This document shows positions 8 to 33,119 of a stretch of DNA of 36,846 bases, piece by piece. The number at the start of each line of letters is the position of its first letter. Within the stretch, counting starts at the first letter, position 1. Position numbers and translations under genes: made by a program. Below the pieces are notes generated by a model. The model did no database searches. It saw only the letters and a program-made list of their open reading frames with translations, and was not told the origin of the DNA. The stretch lies in assembly GCA_020628855.1 (NCBI GenBank), contig JAHDEL010000034.1:1-36846 (forward strand), read 5' to 3'. This stretch comes from Saprospiraceae bacterium. GTDB taxonomy: Bacteria; Bacteroidota; Bacteroidia; Chitinophagales; Saprospiraceae.

Positions 8-23
8 TGTTCCACGTGGAACA
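8..23. promoter_or_regulatory. parS-like centromere site
   Basis: The site reads TGTTCCACGTGGAACA, a perfect 16-bp palindrome with the GTTCCACGTGGAAC core of chromosomal parS sites bound by ParB. This is a direct match to a very well conserved family. No parA or parB gene lies in the window, so the link to segregation rests on the motif alone. The site sits upstream of the M1 peptidase promoter and about 4.3 kb from the candidate origin at 4186-4570, which fits the usual clustering of parS near oriC. Confidence 0.8.
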
Positions 24-3153: not shown

Positions 3154-4185
3154 CTATGTTCTTCTTGCTTCATAGAGAAAAAGAACAAATGCACCCACTA
3201 TCAACAAAGCAATTCCTTGATGCATAACACCTAGAATAAGTGGAATGTGTCCTACACAATTGATCACAGTTAATATGCCAACAACAACCTGACACAACAC
3301 GAGAACCAAAAAGACGGTATAAATTTTCTGCACCTTAATAGTAAACTCTTCTTGCTTAACTTTAAAAAATTGGATAATAACCATGATAAATAAGGCATAA
3401 GCTACTACTCTATGCAACGCTTGTATCAAAGCTGGAGCAAATGGAGATTTATCATAAAACTCCAAATTACTCATTGTCCAGGCTGCAGAATCAGTGAGAA
3501 TATCTGGTACAACCTGTCCATACATATCTGGCCAAGTAGGATAATATAAACCTGCTTTCATGCCACTCATGATACCACCAAGAAAAATCTGCACACCTAA
3601 AAAGATTCCGATAGATAATACGAGTTTGGGTAGCCTACTTTTTACTGCAATGGGATTAAAAGCATAGGCAGTTGCTCTGACTAAAAATGCAAAGGTGATT
3701 GCTGCTATGCTTAAATGTATACTCAGCTTATAAGCATTCACCCAAGGCCGATCTATTAGACCACTCGCAACCATAATCCATCCAAATATGGCTGCCAATA
3801 CTGCAAAACTTATGACAGGTATTAACTTAGACCAAAGAGGTCTGTCTAATCGCTTATTAATGGTAAAAAAGACCGCAGGTATTAGAAAAATAAATCCCAT
3901 CATTCTTGCCCAAAGTCGATGGAAATACTCCCAGAAATAGATAAACTTAAACTCCGGCATTGTCATACCAACATTGAGCTTTTGGTACTGTGGAGTAACT
4001 TTGTAAGCATCAAACTCCACTTGCCAGTCTTCAGCATTCATTGGTGGCAAAGTTCCAGTAACAATTTCCCATTTAGTTATCGACAATCCTGACCCAGTGA
4101 TTCTGGTAATTCCGCCAATAATTACTTGAAAGAAAAGTAAGACACAACCTAAAACAAGCCAATATTTTATTACTCTGGAATACAT
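3154..4185 (-). CDS. cox15: heme A synthase (COX15/CtaA family)
   Basis: This 343-residue multi-pass inner-membrane protein oxidises the C8 methyl of heme O to make heme A for aa3-type cytochrome oxidases. It has about eight hydrophobic segments. The conserved histidines that ligate heme in this family are visible at His89 (EYFHRLW), His157 (SIHLSIA), His258 (ALHRVVAY) and His322 (VMHQGIA). The N-terminal GGITRITGSGLSITKW motif is typical of the COX15 type. The companion gene for heme O synthase is not in the window. It is followed by the hydrolase in the same direction. Its upstream region is the 385-bp gap with the origin candidate. Confidence 0.95.
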   Translation of the reverse strand: MYSRVIKYWLVLGCVLLFFQVIIGGITRITGSGLSITKWEIVTGTLPPMNAEDWQVEFDAYKVTPQYQKLNVGMTMPEFKFIYFWEYFHRLWARMMGFIFLIPAVFFTINKRLDRPLWSKLIPVISFAVLAAIFGWIMVASGLIDRPWVNAYKLSIHLSIAAITFAFLVRATAYAFNPIAVKSRLPKLVLSIGIFLGVQIFLGGIMSGMKAGLYYPTWPDMYGQVVPDILTDSAAWTMSNLEFYDKSPFAPALIQALHRVVAYALFIMVIIQFFKVKQEEFTIKVQKIYTVFLVLVLCQVVVGILTVINCVGHIPLILGVMHQGIALLIVGAFVLFLYEARRT

Positions 4186-4570
4186 ATCAATCTAACACGA
4201 CGCAAGGTATGATGTTTTCCTTTCACTTAAAATCTTCTCTTTTCCCCCAACAGTTATTATTTATTATTATATAATTATTTAAAAAGAAATTCATTATTCA
4301 TTATAAGTACATGTGAATTTGTGAATAAGTCTATTTTAACAAGTAGTCTACAAGTATTTTAACAGTAGAATCTATAGAACTATTAGCTTGAGCTGAGTTA
4401 TTCACTTTTGTGGAAAGTGATTAATGTGAAAAACCAAATTGTGTATTTTATGCTGAAGAAATGCGAATTTTGTAATAACATAATAATATTAGAGTATTCA
4501 TTTATATGTAAGTTGCTCATATCAAAATCACAGATGTGAATAACTAATTCTTTTCACCATTTTTAAACAC
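4186..4570. other. candidate replication origin (oriC-like) in intergenic gap
   Basis: This 385-bp gene-free stretch lies between the divergent starts of cox15 and dtd. It holds two exact matches to the DnaA box TTATNCACA on the minus strand (TTATTCACA, seen as TGTGAATAA at 4320-4328 and 4535-4543). Weaker copies are TTATTCACT at 4398-4406 (+), TTTTTCACA at 4425-4433 (-), and poorer matches at 4312-4320, 4409-4417 and 4440-4448. An almost pure A/T tract at 4253-4308 could act as the unwinding element. A 15/14-base direct repeat lies at 4332-4368. A divergent promoter region for cox15 and dtd is the alternative, and both could be true. I see no ORF or RNA gene here. Confidence 0.5.
4332..4368 (+). 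repeat. short direct repeat in the origin candidate
   Basis: TATTTTAACAAGTAG at 4332-4346 recurs as TATTTTAACAGTAG at 4355-4368, a 23-base offset differing by one base deletion. The copies sit between the AT-rich tract with the first exact DnaA box and the later box cluster. Iterated short repeats are usual in origins, but two copies could also be chance in AT-rich DNA. Confidence 0.5.
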
Positions 4571-5017
4571 ATGAGAGTTGTCATTCAAAGAGTTGAGGAA
4601 GCAGAGTTAGTAGTAGATAATTCAATTATCTCTAGTATTCAGAGAGGCTTAATTATTTACTTGGGTATAACCCAAGAAGATAATACAGATGACATCACTT
4701 GGTTGACACAAAAGATTAGTAATCTCCGCATCTTTTCTGATGAAAGTGGAAAGATGAATTTAAGTGTAAAAGATATAGGAGGAGAGGCTTTAGTTGTAAG
4801 CCAGTTTACCCTTTATGCTAGCACCAAGAAAGGCAATAGACCAAGTTACTTGAGATCAGCAAAACCTGAAATTGCAATTCCACTCTATGAGGAATTTGTA
4901 GTTACCTTGCGGAATTCACTACCTGTTCAGACTGGTGTATTTGGTGCTGACATGCAAATTTCCTATACCAATGCCGGACCTGTCACAATAATTATTGACT
5001 CTAAAAATAAAGAATGA
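4571..5017 (+). CDS. dtd: D-aminoacyl-tRNA deacylase
   Basis: A 148-residue enzyme that hydrolyses D-amino acids (and mischarged glycine) from tRNA, keeping them out of protein synthesis. It covers the full family length. It begins MRVVIQRVEEA, carries the SQFTL motif at about residues 77-81, and ends with the second conserved motif TNAGPVT, whose Gly-cis-Pro pair enforces chiral selection. It is the first gene of a tight + strand run: its TGA stop overlaps the ATG of the next gene (ATGA at 5014-5017). Confidence 0.96.
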   Translation: MRVVIQRVEEAELVVDNSIISSIQRGLIIYLGITQEDNTDDITWLTQKISNLRIFSDESGKMNLSVKDIGGEALVVSQFTLYASTKKGNRPSYLRSAKPEIAIPLYEEFVVTLRNSLPVQTGVFGADMQISYTNAGPVTIIIDSKNKE

Positions 5018-6404: not shown

Positions 6405-6474
6405 TCTCTCTACGAAACAAAGTGTTCGTAACTTCGCTTGGTAGATTACTATTTTCAAAATACTCAAAAGAGAC

Positions 6475-7704
6475 TTGTCTTTGATCGAAAGAGAAGAATT
6501 ATTAGAAAAGCTTGATAGAGAATTGAGTCTGAAAGAACTTCAGATCAAGAGTCTATTAACGATTACTCAAGCTATTAATGATAATGTGAGTAAAGATGGC
6601 TTGTTTAGGATGTATCAATCATTTCTGAGTTGGGAAATGGGGATTTCAACAATGTTGTTATTTATCCAATCAGAAGAGGATTGGGATTGTGTTTGTAGCA
6701 TCAATTATGATAAAGAGAGAGCTCAAAAATTGATACCACAAGTAATACACCTGAAGAGGTTATATACAATCAAGAAAAACGACCACAAAGATTTAGCAGG
6801 TTTTGATATCATTATACCTGTCTATCACAAAGACCAACCTATAGCCTATTCTCTCATAGGTGGAATAAAGGATAAGGAAGACCTGTATAATAAAATCCAA
6901 TTTATTACGACCATCACCAACATCATTGCTGTGGCAATTGAGAATAAGCGCTTGTTTAAGCAGATGATTGAAAAGGAGAAGTATGATAAGGATATGGCCT
7001 TGGCTGGGGAAGTACAGAAAATGCTGATTCCAGATGAAATACCAGTTGGTGATAACTATGAAGTTGATTTAGTTTATAAACCGCACAGTAGTATTGGAGG
7101 TGATTATATAGATTTTATCAAATTTGATAAAAACAAGTTTGCTCTGTGCATTGCTGATATCTCAGGCAAAGGAGTTGCAGCAGCTTTGTTAATGGCAAAT
7201 TTTCAAGCAACCTTGAGAAGTCTAATCTTCCAATATCGAGATCTAGAGACCTTCGTCTATGCTTTGAATGAGGCTGTCTTTAAAATCACCAAAAGTGAGC
7301 GATTTATAACTTTCTTTATTGCAGAAATAGATGCGAAGAAAATGAGCTTGCGGTATATAAATGCTGGTCATTATCCGCCATTACTCTATTCAAATGGTGA
7401 TATCAAAGAACTCAATAAAGGAACAACTGTGATAGGTGCCTTCGAAAAACTACCTATGATTGAAGAGACGACTGTTCCTCTGGGTTATGACTCATTGCTC
7501 TTGAGTTTTACAGATGGTCTAGCAGATATTAAGAATGAGAAAGACGAATACTTTGATGAAAACGTCTTAAAGGAGTTTATAGAAAAACATAAAGAATTAT
7601 CTACGAAAGACTTCAATGAGAAACTAATGAAGTCATTATTGAATTATAAAGGAGACAAGGAATATGTTGATGATATTGCCATACTTACTTGTAAAGTCAA
7701 ATAG
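6475..7704 (+). CDS. SpoIIE/PP2C-type serine phosphatase with GAF-like sensor
   Basis: A 409-residue signalling phosphatase, probably cytoplasmic, of the RsbU/SpoIIE type that usually dephosphorylates anti-sigma antagonists (STAS proteins). The N-terminus is helical, residues about 25-155 look like a GAF sensor, a short coiled linker follows, and the phosphatase core runs from about 185. Metal-binding acids are visible: D210 (GGDY), D228 (ADISGKG), D347 (FTDG) and D399/D400 (VDD). The start is a TTG: back to the in-frame TAG at 6442 there is no ATG or GTG, and the next ATG is 45 codons in, inside the sensor. The TTG at 6481 is an alternative. The gene directly abuts the next ATG. Confidence 0.9.
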   Translation: MSLIEREELLEKLDRELSLKELQIKSLLTITQAINDNVSKDGLFRMYQSFLSWEMGISTMLLFIQSEEDWDCVCSINYDKERAQKLIPQVIHLKRLYTIKKNDHKDLAGFDIIIPVYHKDQPIAYSLIGGIKDKEDLYNKIQFITTITNIIAVAIENKRLFKQMIEKEKYDKDMALAGEVQKMLIPDEIPVGDNYEVDLVYKPHSSIGGDYIDFIKFDKNKFALCIADISGKGVAAALLMANFQATLRSLIFQYRDLETFVYALNEAVFKITKSERFITFFIAEIDAKKMSLRYINAGHYPPLLYSNGDIKELNKGTTVIGAFEKLPMIEETTVPLGYDSLLLSFTDGLADIKNEKDEYFDENVLKEFIEKHKELSTKDFNEKLMKSLLNYKGDKEYVDDIAILTCKVK

Positions 7705-15882: not shown

Positions 15883-16599
15883 ATGCGACTTGTCACCTTT
15901 GCCTTTTTTCTTTTACTGAGCAATGCTAGTATACTAGCACAGCAATTACAAACCCTTATAATTACTGAGCCACAAGAGCTTCAAGGTCAGTTTGATATCA
16001 TCCAAGGATTGTTTTCAACGGTAGACTTTGATACACTTACAGGCTATGGAGTAATATTTGAAGACGGTATCGACGACACTTTTGATGGTTGTTCTGAATC
16101 AACCAATGACATTTCTGACAAAATTGCATTCATTGATAGAGGTACGTGTACATTTGTTGACAAAGCCATGCATGCAAGGAATGGTAATGCGGCAGCAGCA
16201 ATAATTTGTAATGGAGAGAATACTGCCGAAATTTTTCCGATGTCAGGAGAACCAGAAATGGATTATCCTGCGGCTATGATTAGCCATGATGATTGTATAG
16301 AAATAAAATCCCTCTTACAACAAGGAATAGAAATAGGAATTTCATTTAACCTAACACTAACAAGCGAAGACTATTTAAGCCAGTCCGAACACATTACATT
16401 CTTTCCAAATCCAACGGCTAACTTTTTAAGCAATCAAGCAGAAGAACCATTTGAGTACCAACTCTTCAACCAATCTGGAAAGCTCTTGCTATCAGGTAAA
16501 AGTGAAGTAGGAAAACCAATTGATCTCCGAACTTTGAACGCTGGATTCTATTTTATTCAGACAAAAGAAAGAGAGGTATATAAGATAGTCAAGTATTAG
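15883..16599 (+). CDS. PA-domain protein with T9SS type-A sorting domain
   Basis: A 238-residue secreted protein consisting of little more than one protease-associated (PA) domain. A signal peptide (1-19, ending ILAQ) leads into a PA domain at about 25-150, with the core DRGTCTF at 85-91 and the AAAAIICN strand. A T9SS type-A sorting domain follows at about 168-238 with FFPNPTA and the final GFYFIQT strand. PA domains usually sit inside subtilases or peptidases as substrate- or partner-binding lids. Here there is no catalytic domain. It is followed 19 bases later by a paralogous gene and is probably co-transcribed with it. A convergent subtilase lies beyond that gene. Confidence 0.85.
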   Translation: MRLVTFAFFLLLSNASILAQQLQTLIITEPQELQGQFDIIQGLFSTVDFDTLTGYGVIFEDGIDDTFDGCSESTNDISDKIAFIDRGTCTFVDKAMHARNGNAAAAIICNGENTAEIFPMSGEPEMDYPAAMISHDDCIEIKSLLQQGIEIGISFNLTLTSEDYLSQSEHITFFPNPTANFLSNQAEEPFEYQLFNQSGKLLLSGKSEVGKPIDLRTLNAGFYFIQTKEREVYKIVKY

Positions 16600-16618
16600 A
16601 AAGTAAAACTCTTAGATC

Positions 16619-18940
16619 ATGTATAAAAAGATTATTGTAATATTCTTCTTGAAGTTTTTATCATTTTTCATATTTGGTCAAACAGGCTATAATGCGCTTA
16701 TCATACATTCACCAGAGGAGATCCAGGACACCTTTGCAATAAGTACGGCTCTCTTTACGAACGTTACGCAAGATTCACTTTCTGGCACTTTACTTCTTTG
16801 TGATGATGCTATTGATATTGTTACGGATGGTTGTTCGCCAATTATCCAAGATATGTCAGAGAAAATCGGATTGGTAGATAGAGGACAATGCACCTTTGCA
16901 GACAAGGTGGGACATGCTAGAGATGCGGGAGCTATTGCAGTAATAATCTGTAACAATGAATCGGGCGGAGAAATATTTCCTATGGGTGGAGAAGGAGACT
17001 TTGGAGATGTGGTAGCTGTGATGCTTAGTTATGAAGACTGTCTATCAATAAAGCCATTTGCAGATCAAGAAATCAATGCTACATTCTCCATAGTAGAAGT
17101 AATAGAAGATTGCGACCCTGAGTGTACGCAGCCAACATACCCTGAGCATACAGTCTGGGGGCAACAGGGAGAAGGGTCATTTGCCTGTGGATTAGGTGAG
17201 TGGAGCACAATAGGAGTCTCCAACGATACAACAGTATGGGTATGGGATCAAGATGGAGTACCTTTTCCGATCGTAGGAAATGACCCAATAAACTCTGAAA
17301 CAAAATGTAATGGGGCTGCTCTTATGGATTTTTATAAATATAACATTGATCAAGAACTCACTTTAGAAGGTGTTACTCCACATGCAGATTTGATTTCACC
17401 TGTTATTGATCTGACAGATGTCGAATGGCCTATAGTTCATTTCACACAACTACTTTTCACTGCTTCACTTGAATCAGAATCAGCATTTATTACATATTCT
17501 ATTGATGGTGGTTCTACTTGGAAAGATACAATCACCATCCCCTCAAAACATGCAGTAAATTCTTTAGGAACTACAAAACCAGCTACTGCAGAACAACTGA
17601 GTTATTATTTCTGTAATGAGACAATTGGAAATGAGAAAGACGTCAGAATAAAATTTATTGGTAAAGGAGATTTTTATCATTGGTTAGTTGATGATGTCTA
17701 TATCACTAATGGAGCATATGAAGATATCTCCATAGATCCAAGTTGGGTAGGAGGACTTCCAAATTACAAAACACCTTCAACACAAATAGATAGTCAAGTC
17801 CCTTTGGCATTTAGAATTATAAATAATGGCAATATTGCTTATGAAAATTTGCAATACAAAGCTCTCATTCAAAAAGATGAGCAAATAATCTACGAGTACC
17901 AAGGAACGACAACTATCGGAAGTTGTGAAGGTGTAAAAGATATTATTATTCCTGAACTCTGGAGCCCACAGGAAGATGTTGGAAACTATCGAATAACAAT
18001 AGAGTTGACAGATGAACTTCTAGAAGAGGAAGATAATCTTGATGATAATAAAGTATCGAAAACTTTTCTTATCACGGAAAAAGTGTTCTCAAAGACTGAT
18101 AAAGAGGATAATCTTTTTAATTGCTATTCGAAGGTACACAATAACACAATAGCAAATGCATATGTAATTAATTCAGATGAAAGCTTCAGACCTGCTGTCA
18201 TTAATACAGGAATTGCAGGTGGAAATATTGCCTCTTTTGATCATCATTTTATAGGAGAAGTAAGGGAGTGGGTGGATGACACAAACGATAATGGAAAAGT
18301 AGAACTGGCTGAAGAAACAATCTTGATAGCTTCAGGAGAGCGAATATATACTGGCAACTTTGACTTACATGACTTCGAAATTCCTCTTGACGTTCATTTG
18401 GAGGACATGGATAAGGGTAAACAATATTTGGCCATCGTAAACCACATAGAAATCGATAATCCCAATCCGCTAGTTTGTGCAAACGAACTCTTCTATAAAC
18501 TGAGTCAAGGTAACTTAAGCTACAATCATTTAGCTACAAGCTATGCGTTTAAAGAGGTATTTAATGAATTCAGAGCAATAGCGTTTGCAAGCTTTGGAGA
18601 GACAAGATTGGATAACTATCAAGATTTAGTACTATCAGGAGAAGTTAGTGATACTGCCGTTTGGTTTGTGGATTTAGAAATAGAACTTTCTTCCGGCATT
18701 GAAGAAGAGGTTTTTCAATATACAGATGAAGTTTACCCCAATCCATTCATTAATAATTTACAGATATCTGACTCTGTGGAGTCTTACGAGGTCTATACAC
18801 TCCAAGGGAATAAAATTCGTACAAAAAGCAGTGAAAGAACACTTAATACATCTCAATGGCACAAAGGCATTTATTTATTAGTAACAACAGATAAAAAAGG
18901 AAGACAAGGGGTGCATAAAGTTCTGAAAGAGTCCTTCTAG
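16619..18940 (+). CDS. large PA-domain T9SS cargo protein
   Basis: A 773-residue secreted protein. A signal peptide (1-20, ending FGQ) precedes a PA domain at about 24-150 with DRGQCTF at 87-93, clearly related to the previous gene's PA domain. Residues from about 175 to 365 look like a MAM or jelly-roll ligand-binding domain, with ITYSIDGGSTWKD and the closing HWLVDDVYI strand. A beta-sandwich region of about 300 residues follows, then a T9SS sorting domain from about 706 (VYPNPFINN to the end). No catalytic residues were recognised. Its stop overlaps the convergent subtilase stop by four bases (CTAG). Confidence 0.82.
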   Translation: MYKKIIVIFFLKFLSFFIFGQTGYNALIIHSPEEIQDTFAISTALFTNVTQDSLSGTLLLCDDAIDIVTDGCSPIIQDMSEKIGLVDRGQCTFADKVGHARDAGAIAVIICNNESGGEIFPMGGEGDFGDVVAVMLSYEDCLSIKPFADQEINATFSIVEVIEDCDPECTQPTYPEHTVWGQQGEGSFACGLGEWSTIGVSNDTTVWVWDQDGVPFPIVGNDPINSETKCNGAALMDFYKYNIDQELTLEGVTPHADLISPVIDLTDVEWPIVHFTQLLFTASLESESAFITYSIDGGSTWKDTITIPSKHAVNSLGTTKPATAEQLSYYFCNETIGNEKDVRIKFIGKGDFYHWLVDDVYITNGAYEDISIDPSWVGGLPNYKTPSTQIDSQVPLAFRIINNGNIAYENLQYKALIQKDEQIIYEYQGTTTIGSCEGVKDIIIPELWSPQEDVGNYRITIELTDELLEEEDNLDDNKVSKTFLITEKVFSKTDKEDNLFNCYSKVHNNTIANAYVINSDESFRPAVINTGIAGGNIASFDHHFIGEVREWVDDTNDNGKVELAEETILIASGERIYTGNFDLHDFEIPLDVHLEDMDKGKQYLAIVNHIEIDNPNPLVCANELFYKLSQGNLSYNHLATSYAFKEVFNEFRAIAFASFGETRLDNYQDLVLSGEVSDTAVWFVDLEIELSSGIEEEVFQYTDEVYPNPFINNLQISDSVESYEVYTLQGNKIRTKSSERTLNTSQWHKGIYLLVTTDKKGRQGVHKVLKESF

Positions 18941-31347: not shown

Positions 31348-32496
31348 ATGAGTAAGCCGAGAACACTAGAGGATATTATATCAATCATTCGACTACTTGC
31401 AGAGCAGTCCAAAGAAATGAAGATTGTATTTAGCAATCCGATGTCAAATATTGCTCAGAAGAAAATAGAGGTGCATACACAACCTCTTTCATCAAGTAAG
31501 CGATATGCTTATCATTATATACAAGAAAGCCAAAGCTTCACTCAACCGATAACCAAGGAAGAACTTGTTGATTTTTTTAACGCAAGGGTCATTCTGTTTA
31601 AACAAGTCCTGATACAGACAGCAACACATTCTCATCAAATATTACAGAACAATAAGGGAAAGACAACTATCATAAGCAAGCAACAGGAACATAAAAATTT
31701 AGTAGAAAGCCAAGAAAAACAGTATTTGATTTCTGCGAAAGAACCATGGCTTTATTCCCTTGGCATCACGACGAAAGAAGGCAAAGTAAAAGATAAAAAG
31801 CAAGCAAAATTTAGGCAGATCAACAAGTTTGTAGAAATTGTTTCAACAACTCTTCGGGAAGAAGACAAAACTAGTCAACTAACTTTGACTGATCTTGGGT
31901 GCGGTAAAGGATATTTATCTTTCGCACTATACAGTTATCTCAAGGCACGGAAGAGTGAGCCAAAAGCATTTCACTGCATTGACATCAAGCAGGATATAAT
32001 GAATAATTGCAATCAAATTGCCATGTCGTTAGACTACAAAAACCTGCATTTCACCTGTGGGGATATAGGCCAAACATCGATAAAACACACAGATGTCTTG
32101 ATTGCCCTTCATGCTTGTGACATACTCACAGATATTGCATTATACAAAGCAGTAAAAGCAGGTGCAAAATATATTTTCTCTTCTCCTTGTTGCCATAAGC
32201 AGATCAGAAAGTTGATGAGAAAAACAAAAGAAACACCGTTTATTCATAAACAAGGCATCCTTCAAGAAAGACAAGCAGAGATAGTGACAGATACCATTAG
32301 AGGACTCCTACTGGAGCAACATGGATATACTGTAGATATATTCGAATTCGTATCAACGGAGCATACCTCAAAGAATCTTATGATTAGAGCAGTTCAAACA
32401 GGAAAGAAACGAGACAATAGAACTGAGATAGAAACACTAAAAAGGCAATATGGGATTCAGGGAGCACACTACTTAGAAGACCTATTTAAGAGTTAA
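31348..32496 (+). CDS. class I SAM-dependent methyltransferase, substrate unknown
   Basis: A 382-residue protein. The N-terminal 150 residues are basic and may bind RNA (about 20-130, including SSSKRYAYHYI). The methyltransferase domain starts near 180 with the SAM motif D182-LGCGKGYLSF. It contains LHACDILTD near 251-259 and SPCCHK at 279-284, motifs of the Methyltransf_32-like group. The group is often suggested to act on RNA, but the substrate is not established to my knowledge. It is followed convergently by rsmG, with stops overlapping by four bases. Upstream is a 65-bp divergent gap shared with the channel gene. Confidence 0.8.
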   Translation: MSKPRTLEDIISIIRLLAEQSKEMKIVFSNPMSNIAQKKIEVHTQPLSSSKRYAYHYIQESQSFTQPITKEELVDFFNARVILFKQVLIQTATHSHQILQNNKGKTTIISKQQEHKNLVESQEKQYLISAKEPWLYSLGITTKEGKVKDKKQAKFRQINKFVEIVSTTLREEDKTSQLTLTDLGCGKGYLSFALYSYLKARKSEPKAFHCIDIKQDIMNNCNQIAMSLDYKNLHFTCGDIGQTSIKHTDVLIALHACDILTDIALYKAVKAGAKYIFSSPCCHKQIRKLMRKTKETPFIHKQGILQERQAEIVTDTIRGLLLEQHGYTVDIFEFVSTEHTSKNLMIRAVQTGKKRDNRTEIETLKRQYGIQGAHYLEDLFKS

Positions 32497-33119
32497 GCCT
32501 GTACATAGACAACGTACTTTTCTTCAAAGAAGTCTTCGTTAAAGTAAGATAGAATAGGGTGTTGTTCAACATACTCCCAAGAAGCAAGCAAAGCACGTTC
32601 TGCTTTTAAGTCACCACCCTTTAAGGCAATTAATCCATTTGGCATGGCATGCTTTTGTTTATTGCTGATTAATTTTCTTGACCAAGTCATCAAGACATCA
32701 AGTTTTGCTACAGCTCTGGTAATCACAAAATCATAGCGACTCTTCAACTCTTCTGCTCTTCCATGTTCTGAAATGACATTCTTGAGACCTAACTCATTGA
32801 CAACTGCATCCACAACTGTAATTTTCTTAGACCTAGCATCTACAAGATGAAATGTTGAATCAGGAAATAGAATAGCCAAAGGTATTCCAGGAAAACCGCC
32901 ACCACAGCCCAGATCTAAAATGCTCGCTTCATTAAATGTGATAAATTTGGCAATTGCAAGACTATGCAGGACATGTCTGATCATCAAGTTATCGATATCT
33001 TTTCTGGAGACGACATTAATTTTTGCATTCCACTCTTCATAAATACTTTGAAGAGCAGCAAAGCTTTTTAGTTGACTTTCAGAAAGCCTTGGAAAATACT
33101 CAGAAAGTCTATCTACCAT
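32493..33119 (-). CDS. rsmG: 16S rRNA (guanine(527)-N(7))-methyltransferase
   Basis: A 208-residue SAM-dependent enzyme that methylates N7 of G527 in 16S rRNA, a modification whose loss gives low-level streptomycin resistance. The family signatures RHVLHSLAI (48-56) and LDLGCGGGFPGIPLAI (from 68) are present, and the fold continues through VDARSKKI and FVITRAVAKLD. The start overlaps the glycosyltransferase stop by seven bases, so the two are translationally coupled. In many bacteria this gene (gidB) lies next to mnmG and parAB near the origin. Here it does not. Confidence 0.95.
   Translation of the reverse strand: MVDRLSEYFPRLSESQLKSFAALQSIYEEWNAKINVVSRKDIDNLMIRHVLHSLAIAKFITFNEASILDLGCGGGFPGIPLAILFPDSTFHLVDARSKKITVVDAVVNELGLKNVISEHGRAEELKSRYDFVITRAVAKLDVLMTWSRKLISNKQKHAMPNGLIALKGGDLKAERALLASWEYVEQHPILSYFNEDFFEEKYVVYVQA

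Follow-up and report, generated by a model that had tools for sequence, protein, structure and literature searches.

A predicted chromosomal replication origin in the divergent gap between cox15 and dtd of a Saprospiraceae bacterium

The question raised by the locus described here is whether the intergenic gap between the divergent genes cox15 and dtd of an uncultured Saprospiraceae bacterium, nucleotides 4186 to 4570 of the stretch analysed, is the place where replication of the chromosome starts. This stretch, referred to as the window, is contig C36 (positions 1-36846, 36,846 nucleotides) of genome G000, an assembly of 3.43 Mb in 74 contigs that is 98.6% complete. An earlier note, made from the sequence alone, had proposed a chromosome origin at this place, and the proposal is now supported by the DnaA boxes of relatives, by a flip of the GC skew in genome G082, by a sequence profile whose best match is at the expected place in most of the family genomes searched, and by parS-linked sites elsewhere. 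We conclude that this gap is very probably the origin (oriC) from which the bacterium replicates its chromosome. It includes an intergenic cluster of DnaA boxes and an A/T-rich unwinding element, lies close to parS, and has a conserved position, which with respect to cox15 holds for the family only; the skew expected of an oriC is found in relatives (G082, G055 for the element described below, and a trend in the genus). The gap can be considered an oriC of the ordinary kind in a position for which no description was found in the literature searched, a search that did not cover DoriC.

DnaA boxes, GC skew and parS around cox15

The cox15 loci of 72 family genomes, the window included, were compared. 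The genomes were hand-picked, mostly one per genus, and a cox15 match was present in 193 of the 218 genomes searched in one of the two source searches. The 1-kb regions upstream of cox15 contained 123 exact copies of the DnaA box TTATNCACA in 70,693 bp (1.74/kb), as compared to 103 copies (0.12/kb) in the other 847,021 bp of these loci, which is a 14-fold enrichment upstream. When 500 permuted motifs were counted in the same upstream regions the mean was 4.8 and the maximum 51. At least one exact box was found in 55 of the 72 genomes and at least two in 31. A k-mer comparison to which no motif was supplied also ranked DnaA-box words first upstream of cox15. Genomes G001 and G002, which belong to the same genus as the window, have 5-6 exact boxes each. 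The box-richest origin among those examined is that of G146, with 11 exact copies in about 560 bp upstream of cox15 (locus L157, C2:1882001-1902000, 6473-7027).

In a same-genus alignment, boxes of G001, G002 and G003 fall in the columns of the window boxes at 4320, 4398 and 4425. The box at 4320-4328 aligns with TTATCCACA in G001 and G002 and with a version having 1 mismatch in G003, and the two window boxes with one mismatch correspond to exact boxes in G001 and G002 (4398) or in all three congeners (4425). In G009, G021 and G024 dtd is not the neighbour of cox15, yet the boxes stay upstream of cox15. Box conservation in relatives was a check set beforehand, and its outcome favours the origin: the boxes are kept family-wide and in the same columns within the genus.

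A sign change of the GC skew, the other check set beforehand, was found at the homologous spot in G082, and a trend in the expected sense was found in the four genomes of the genus. G082 consists of one contig of 7,507,556 bp in which cox15 occupies nucleotides 2,347,723-2,348,745 and the upstream exact boxes start at 2,349,010. The skew is negative in the first nine 20-kb samples, of which the last starts at 2,338,001, and positive in 8 of the 11 that follow, and between adjacent 10-kb bins the skew passes from -0.068 to +0.042 at 2,348,000. A comparable change was observed in G055, a genome from outside the family with a 2.85-Mb contig: the skew is negative in all seven samples up to 1,300,001, positive in all six from 1,340,001 on, and near zero in the sample that holds the element (1,330,411). 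Within the genus the skews to the left and right of the gap are -0.047 and +0.019 in G000, -0.047 and -0.005 in G001, -0.033 and +0.033 in G002, and -0.044 and +0.006 in G003, i.e., negative on the left and higher on the right in 4 of 4 genomes; for the window's own genome the skew was examined on this contig only. On all four contigs the cumulative skew reaches its minimum at a point 5-11 kb right of the gap, close to it but not exactly there, an offset that could be caused by local genes.

The parS pattern TGTTNCACGTGNAACA was found in 51 of 60 genomes, that of the window included, in 1-3 copies, and in 18 of the 20 family genomes of a second set in 1-5 copies. Copies of one genome are mostly located together, with exceptions in G051, G146 and G222. 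In G146 a lone extra parS-like palindrome is located at C2:3631179, about 1.7 Mb from the origin cluster. The distance between parS and the start of cox15 is 1.9-33.3 kb, with a median of 8.5 kb, in 35 of 35 family genomes tabulated with both on the same contig; this count does not include the pairs on different contigs (G006, G010, G011, G012, G013, G023 and G032) or seven parS-bearing family genomes for which no cox15 position was listed. The window itself starts 7 bases ahead of parS, so that the assembly break is inside the origin region.

The ParB gene of this genome is on contig C19. DnaA, a 466-amino acid protein encoded on contig C29, outside the window, includes in its C-terminal part the sequence FGGKDHSTVIY, which we take to resemble the usual box-binding motif. 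An origin beside dnaA was considered and rejected: the 3.5 kb around dnaA includes no exact TTATNCACA, and the nearest copy listed on C29 is about 38 kb or more from the gene.

A composite element and its likeness to known origins

The k-mer comparison led to the identification of a 48-bp composite located upstream of cox15 and facing this gene. It consists of tandem DnaA boxes, a short spacer, a trinucleotide repeat and an A/T tract, with the consensus TTATCCACA AATYAACA GCCC TGATGATGATG followed by A/T. In the family, the median distance between the AT-richest 60 bp and the start of cox15 is 143.5 bp. K-mer words with ACTAACA had been taken for a separate motif, which was dropped, and they are now considered to come from the second, weaker one of the tandem boxes.

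With a position-weight matrix read in the direction of cox15, 67 of the 72 regions scored higher than the 99th percentile of 355 control windows, a count that is partly circular, as 61 of the regions had trained the matrix and the controls were scored on one strand; the figure was 15 of 72 in the opposite direction and 1 of 10 for other families. G001 and G002 barely pass the cut-off, and G000, G003, G065, G078 and G223 fail it. A fairer test was possible with a genome-wide background and a profile, R1, built from 63 sequences from which G000 and G003 were excluded. Of 37 family genomes searched, 32 had their best genome-wide R1 match where it was expected, namely 28 of the 29 training genomes and 4 of 8 held-out ones. 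The held-out successes are G006, G011, G020 and G025, the site being placed by dtd in G011 and by dtd together with a divergent COX15-family gene in G020. This divergent COX15-CtaA gene beside the element of G020 (L262, C71:43001-46000; 1768-2775, + strand) had been missed by the query with the window cox15.

DnaA-trios lie on the strand opposite the DnaA box. The sequence printed in PMC7561715 fits this placement. The rules described for the basal unwinding system (BUS) are a DnaA box with at most 2 mismatches, a spacer of 0-16 bp and at least three NAN trinucleotides (PMC8287927), and the window has such an arrangement, the box strand carrying TTATTCACA, a 12-bp spacer and CTT-ATA-ATG. Of 63 aligned relatives, a set chosen with a seed pattern that favours such repeats, 58 have three or more of these trinucleotides in a row. 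On the other hand, the element as a whole does not follow the stricter trio consensus 3'-[G/A]A[T/A]-5' (PMC7561715), which trio 1 fits in 36 of the 63 relatives and trios 2-4 in none. Trios 2, 3 and 4 read ATR in 59, 53 and 33 of the 63, respectively, a conserved departure from the published trio consensus that is the most novel feature of the predicted origin.

The element resembles the oriC of the Bacillus subtilis type with a BUS (PMC8287927, PMC6669920, PMC10721633) in having tandem boxes of which the second shows less conservation, an 11-12 bp spacer counted from the first box, three or more central-A trinucleotides opposite the box strand, and A/T-rich DNA after them. It differs from that type in three respects: the predicted origin is not beside dnaA, the box strand in the aligned family members is mostly ATR (3'-TAY-5') from the second trinucleotide on, and the two boxes overlap by one base (8-bp shift). 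DnaA boxes, a GC cluster, a trio repeat and an A/T unwinding region are also the components of Clostridioides difficile oriC2 (PMC7561715), in which the trio stretch is CACCTACTACTATTACTACTATGA and is found in the dnaA region, whereas here it is mostly CTR(ATR)n and is found beside cox15 and dtd. A location apart from dnaA is shared with the E. coli type of oriC, between gidA and mioC (PMC10225481); in addition, an mnmG/gidA-like gene, named by eye, is near the element in G051 and G057 from other families. The neighbours in the window, in contrast, are cox15 and dtd. The origin of one Blattabacterium was placed in dapB by skew, without DnaA boxes (PMC2768785). Among the titles and abstract openings searched, with DoriC and supplements outside the search, there was no link between oriC and cox15 and no Saprospiraceae origin, nor was there a paper naming both DnaA-trio and Bacteroidetes.

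From the elements observed, their conservation in relatives and the flip of the skew there, we infer how DnaA binding, unwinding, initiation and the action of ParB might proceed at this site. DnaA, supplied from contig C29, would bind the scattered boxes, and on the tandem pair (4312-4328) it would form a platform pointing toward cox15. A DnaA filament could then extend onto one strand of the trinucleotide repeat (approximately 4299-4307) and help open the A/T tract at 4250-4299, where the helicase would enter and from which two forks would depart. By way of the parS site, 4.3 kb away, ParB would gather newly replicated origins so that they can be segregated.

The element outside the family and the weighing of alternatives

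Matches to R1 at E <= 5e-4 were found in 11 genomes of other families, none of which was in the training set. Four of them (G040, G045, G055 and G056) are among 23 non-family genomes and seven (G342, G263, G356, G265, G382, G261 and G330) belong to a 148-genome sample of the class. A strict parS pattern is present in 7 of the 11, and in all seven the element is on the same contig at 1.3-16.6 kb from parS; the remaining four are without strict parS, among them G342, a one-contig genome in which the element is at 3,710,859. Weaker matches (E 0.0055-0.13) lie within 1.0-3.9 kb of parS in G051, G057, G037 and G043, at E 0.0055 and 1.0-1.4 kb in the first two, and in G037 the match near parS is not the best of that genome. 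For the other 15 of the 23 non-family genomes no parS link was seen among the matches listed. Eight class genomes with matches at E 0.001-0.003, mostly partial, have no parS on the matched contig: parS is on another contig in G374, G385, G335, G307, G369 and G271, and there is none in G328 and G320. The element is not demonstrated class-wide.

The neighbours of the element near parS are nadA- or mnmG-like genes in G055, G056, G051 and G057, and a nadD-like gene is beside it in G040, which is without strict parS (all named by eye). As the element has these other neighbours where it is found near parS, its position is tied to the origin region rather than to cox15. This suggests that the origin changed its neighbour genes while mostly staying near parS.

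These observations bear on an alternative in which the boxes are a divergent promoter through which DnaA controls cox15 and dtd, the true origin being elsewhere near parS. The gap is divergent, DnaA is also a transcription regulator (PMC11317965), and within the family a COX15-family gene remains next to the boxes and the element, all of which speak for this alternative. Against it are the element near parS beside other genes in other families, the skew that flips at the site in G082, and the boxes that remain upstream of cox15 when dtd is not its neighbour. Furthermore, tandem boxes, repeat and A/T tract succeed one another as in an unwinding site. We consider the promoter explanation very improbable.

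A broader interpretation of the element is that of a lineage-specific unwinding signal, made of boxes shifted by 8 bp, a near-canonical trio and 3'-TAY-5' trios and read by an adapted DnaA, which would be present in Saprospiraceae and in members of several other Bacteroidia families, would move with the origin and parS rather than with neighbour genes, and could be used to locate oriC in draft genomes of uncultured members. We propose it tentatively and with somewhat less than even confidence, slightly lowered because R1 matches at E <= 0.003 were found in only 17 of the 148 genomes sampled across the class. A reliable origin position in Saprospiraceae would be of use for estimates of growth rate from metagenome coverage, for the rotation of assemblies and for replicating plasmids. 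In some other families, too, sites linked to parS are picked up by the R1 profile, which makes the DnaA-trio rules testable in Bacteroidetes.

The restricted occurrence in the class is one of several results that weigh against an origin in the cox15-dtd gap. No exact box is present in the 1 kb upstream of cox15 in 17 of the 72 family genomes, two of which offer just 298 and 395 bp of upstream sequence. Exact boxes at this place were found in 0 of 10 genomes from other families of the order (those examined at cox15 out of 23 searched), and as a consequence the link between cox15 and the origin seems confined to the family. The best R1 match is elsewhere or absent in G000, G003, G022, G024 and G030, and in the window the site at 4282-4328 scores 5.4 bits with an E of 1.3, which is rank 8 in the window. 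Because of this score and rank, the assignment in the window's genome rests on gene order, the aligned boxes, the tandem pair, the A/T tract and parS, and not on the profile. With respect to the skew, 3 of the 11 samples past the flip in G082 are negative and two later 10-kb bins before 2.44 Mb slightly so, in G128, whose cox15 is at 3.80 Mb, the skew is weak and does not turn before about 4.3-4.8 Mb, the profiles of G146 and G019 are irregular, and the cumulative minimum of the window itself is at 15.5 kb and not at 4.4 kb. As regards the box pair taken by itself, the genome includes 183 exact TTATNCACA as compared to 151 for a reversed control pattern, and there is at least one closer pair of boxes elsewhere (C23, 138 bp apart) among 100 places listed.

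The position of the minimum at 15.5 kb would agree with an origin at a neighbouring gap, a few kb off in the ori-parS region, of which the cox15-dtd gap would be the decaying ancestor; so would the low number of exact boxes here, two as compared to the 5-6 of G001 and G002, and the weakness of the element. Within the window, which ends at parS on this side so that the DNA beyond is outside the comparison, it is nevertheless the cox15-dtd gap that keeps the highest box density, the tandem pair and the A/T tract, and a displaced origin is in our judgment very unlikely.

The two exact boxes, the near matches, the A/T tract and the parS site 4.3 kb away that the earlier note had placed at this locus are all present. 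Its rough estimate was about two exact boxes by chance per window; in window-wide shuffles TTATTCACA is expected 0.69 times and at least two copies occurred in 12 of 100, so that the number in the window as a whole is not remarkable. Two exact boxes within the gap are rarer: two exact TTATNCACA were reached in 2 of 2000 gap shuffles. The observed counts of sites with at most 1 and at most 2 mismatches were reached in 27 and 326 of 2000, respectively. Over the whole window 45 sites with at most 1 mismatch were found and 50 were expected, i.e., there is no enrichment; the 385-bp windows richest in such sites overlap the gap (the top 12 listed start at 4051-4401). Taking the 12 shuffles with two boxes together with the 183 exact boxes of the genome, the box pair alone is weak evidence and would not prove an origin. 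That A/T-rich words clustered in this intergenic gap by chance, although compatible with these numbers and with the closer pair elsewhere, is already contradicted by conservation, namely the 14-fold family enrichment with its permuted-motif control and the conserved congener columns, as well as by the skew and parS linkage, and is extremely unlikely.

Features of the gap and of the window

The features that define the predicted oriC, together with the flanking genes, are collected in Table 1.

Table 1. Location of the predicted oriC, its candidate elements and the adjacent genes in the window
Feature	Position	Strand	Basis and remarks
Predicted oriC	4186..4570		Divergent intergenic gap cox15/dtd; family box conservation, skew flip at homologous place in G082
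Exact DnaA box TTATTCACA, first of tandem pair, pointing at A/T tract	4320..4328	-	Motif search
Weaker box AAATTCACA, second of tandem pair, differs from TTATTCACA at 2 positions, start offset 8 bp	4312..4320	-	From sequence; family element with same tandem layout
DnaA-trio-like run CTT-ATA-ATG, after TGTA spacer	4299..4307	-	From sequence, agrees with family element; putative function
A/T tract, 10% GC, probable DNA unwinding element	4250..4299		Base composition
Near-match DnaA box TTATTCACT, 1 mismatch	4398..4406	+	Exact TTATNCACA in G001 and G002, same alignment columns
Near-match DnaA box TTTTTCACA, 1 mismatch	4425..4433	-	Exact (TGTGAATAA on aligned strand) in G001, G002 and G003
Exact DnaA box TTATTCACA near dtd	4535..4543	-	Motif search; congeners conserve the box only partly
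Near-match TTAAACACA, 1 mismatch, overlaps dtd start, 1 base beyond gap; low confidence	4563..4571	+	Motif search
parS palindrome TGTTCCACGTGGAACA	8..23		4.3 kb from first box; sole TGTTNCACGTGNAACA in genome
cox15/ctaA, heme A synthase family	3154..4185	-	Pfam COX15-CtaA, E 4e-80
dtd, D-aminoacyl-tRNA deacylase	4571..5017	+	Pfam; NCBIfam TIGR00256, E 1e-55

Within the family cox15 is the gene most closely linked to the origin; its match to the NCBIfam heme A synthase model is far under the cut-off. No Rfam element was found in the window at the gathering score, and a search for inverted and direct repeats in the gap gave nothing useful besides the DnaA boxes. Nucleotides 15883-18940 of the window include two adjacent genes with N-terminal halves that are alike by eye, possibly a tandem duplication of secreted proteins. 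The gene rsmG (gidB), a frequent neighbour of the origin in other bacteria, is located at nucleotides 32493-33119, 28 kb from the predicted origin.
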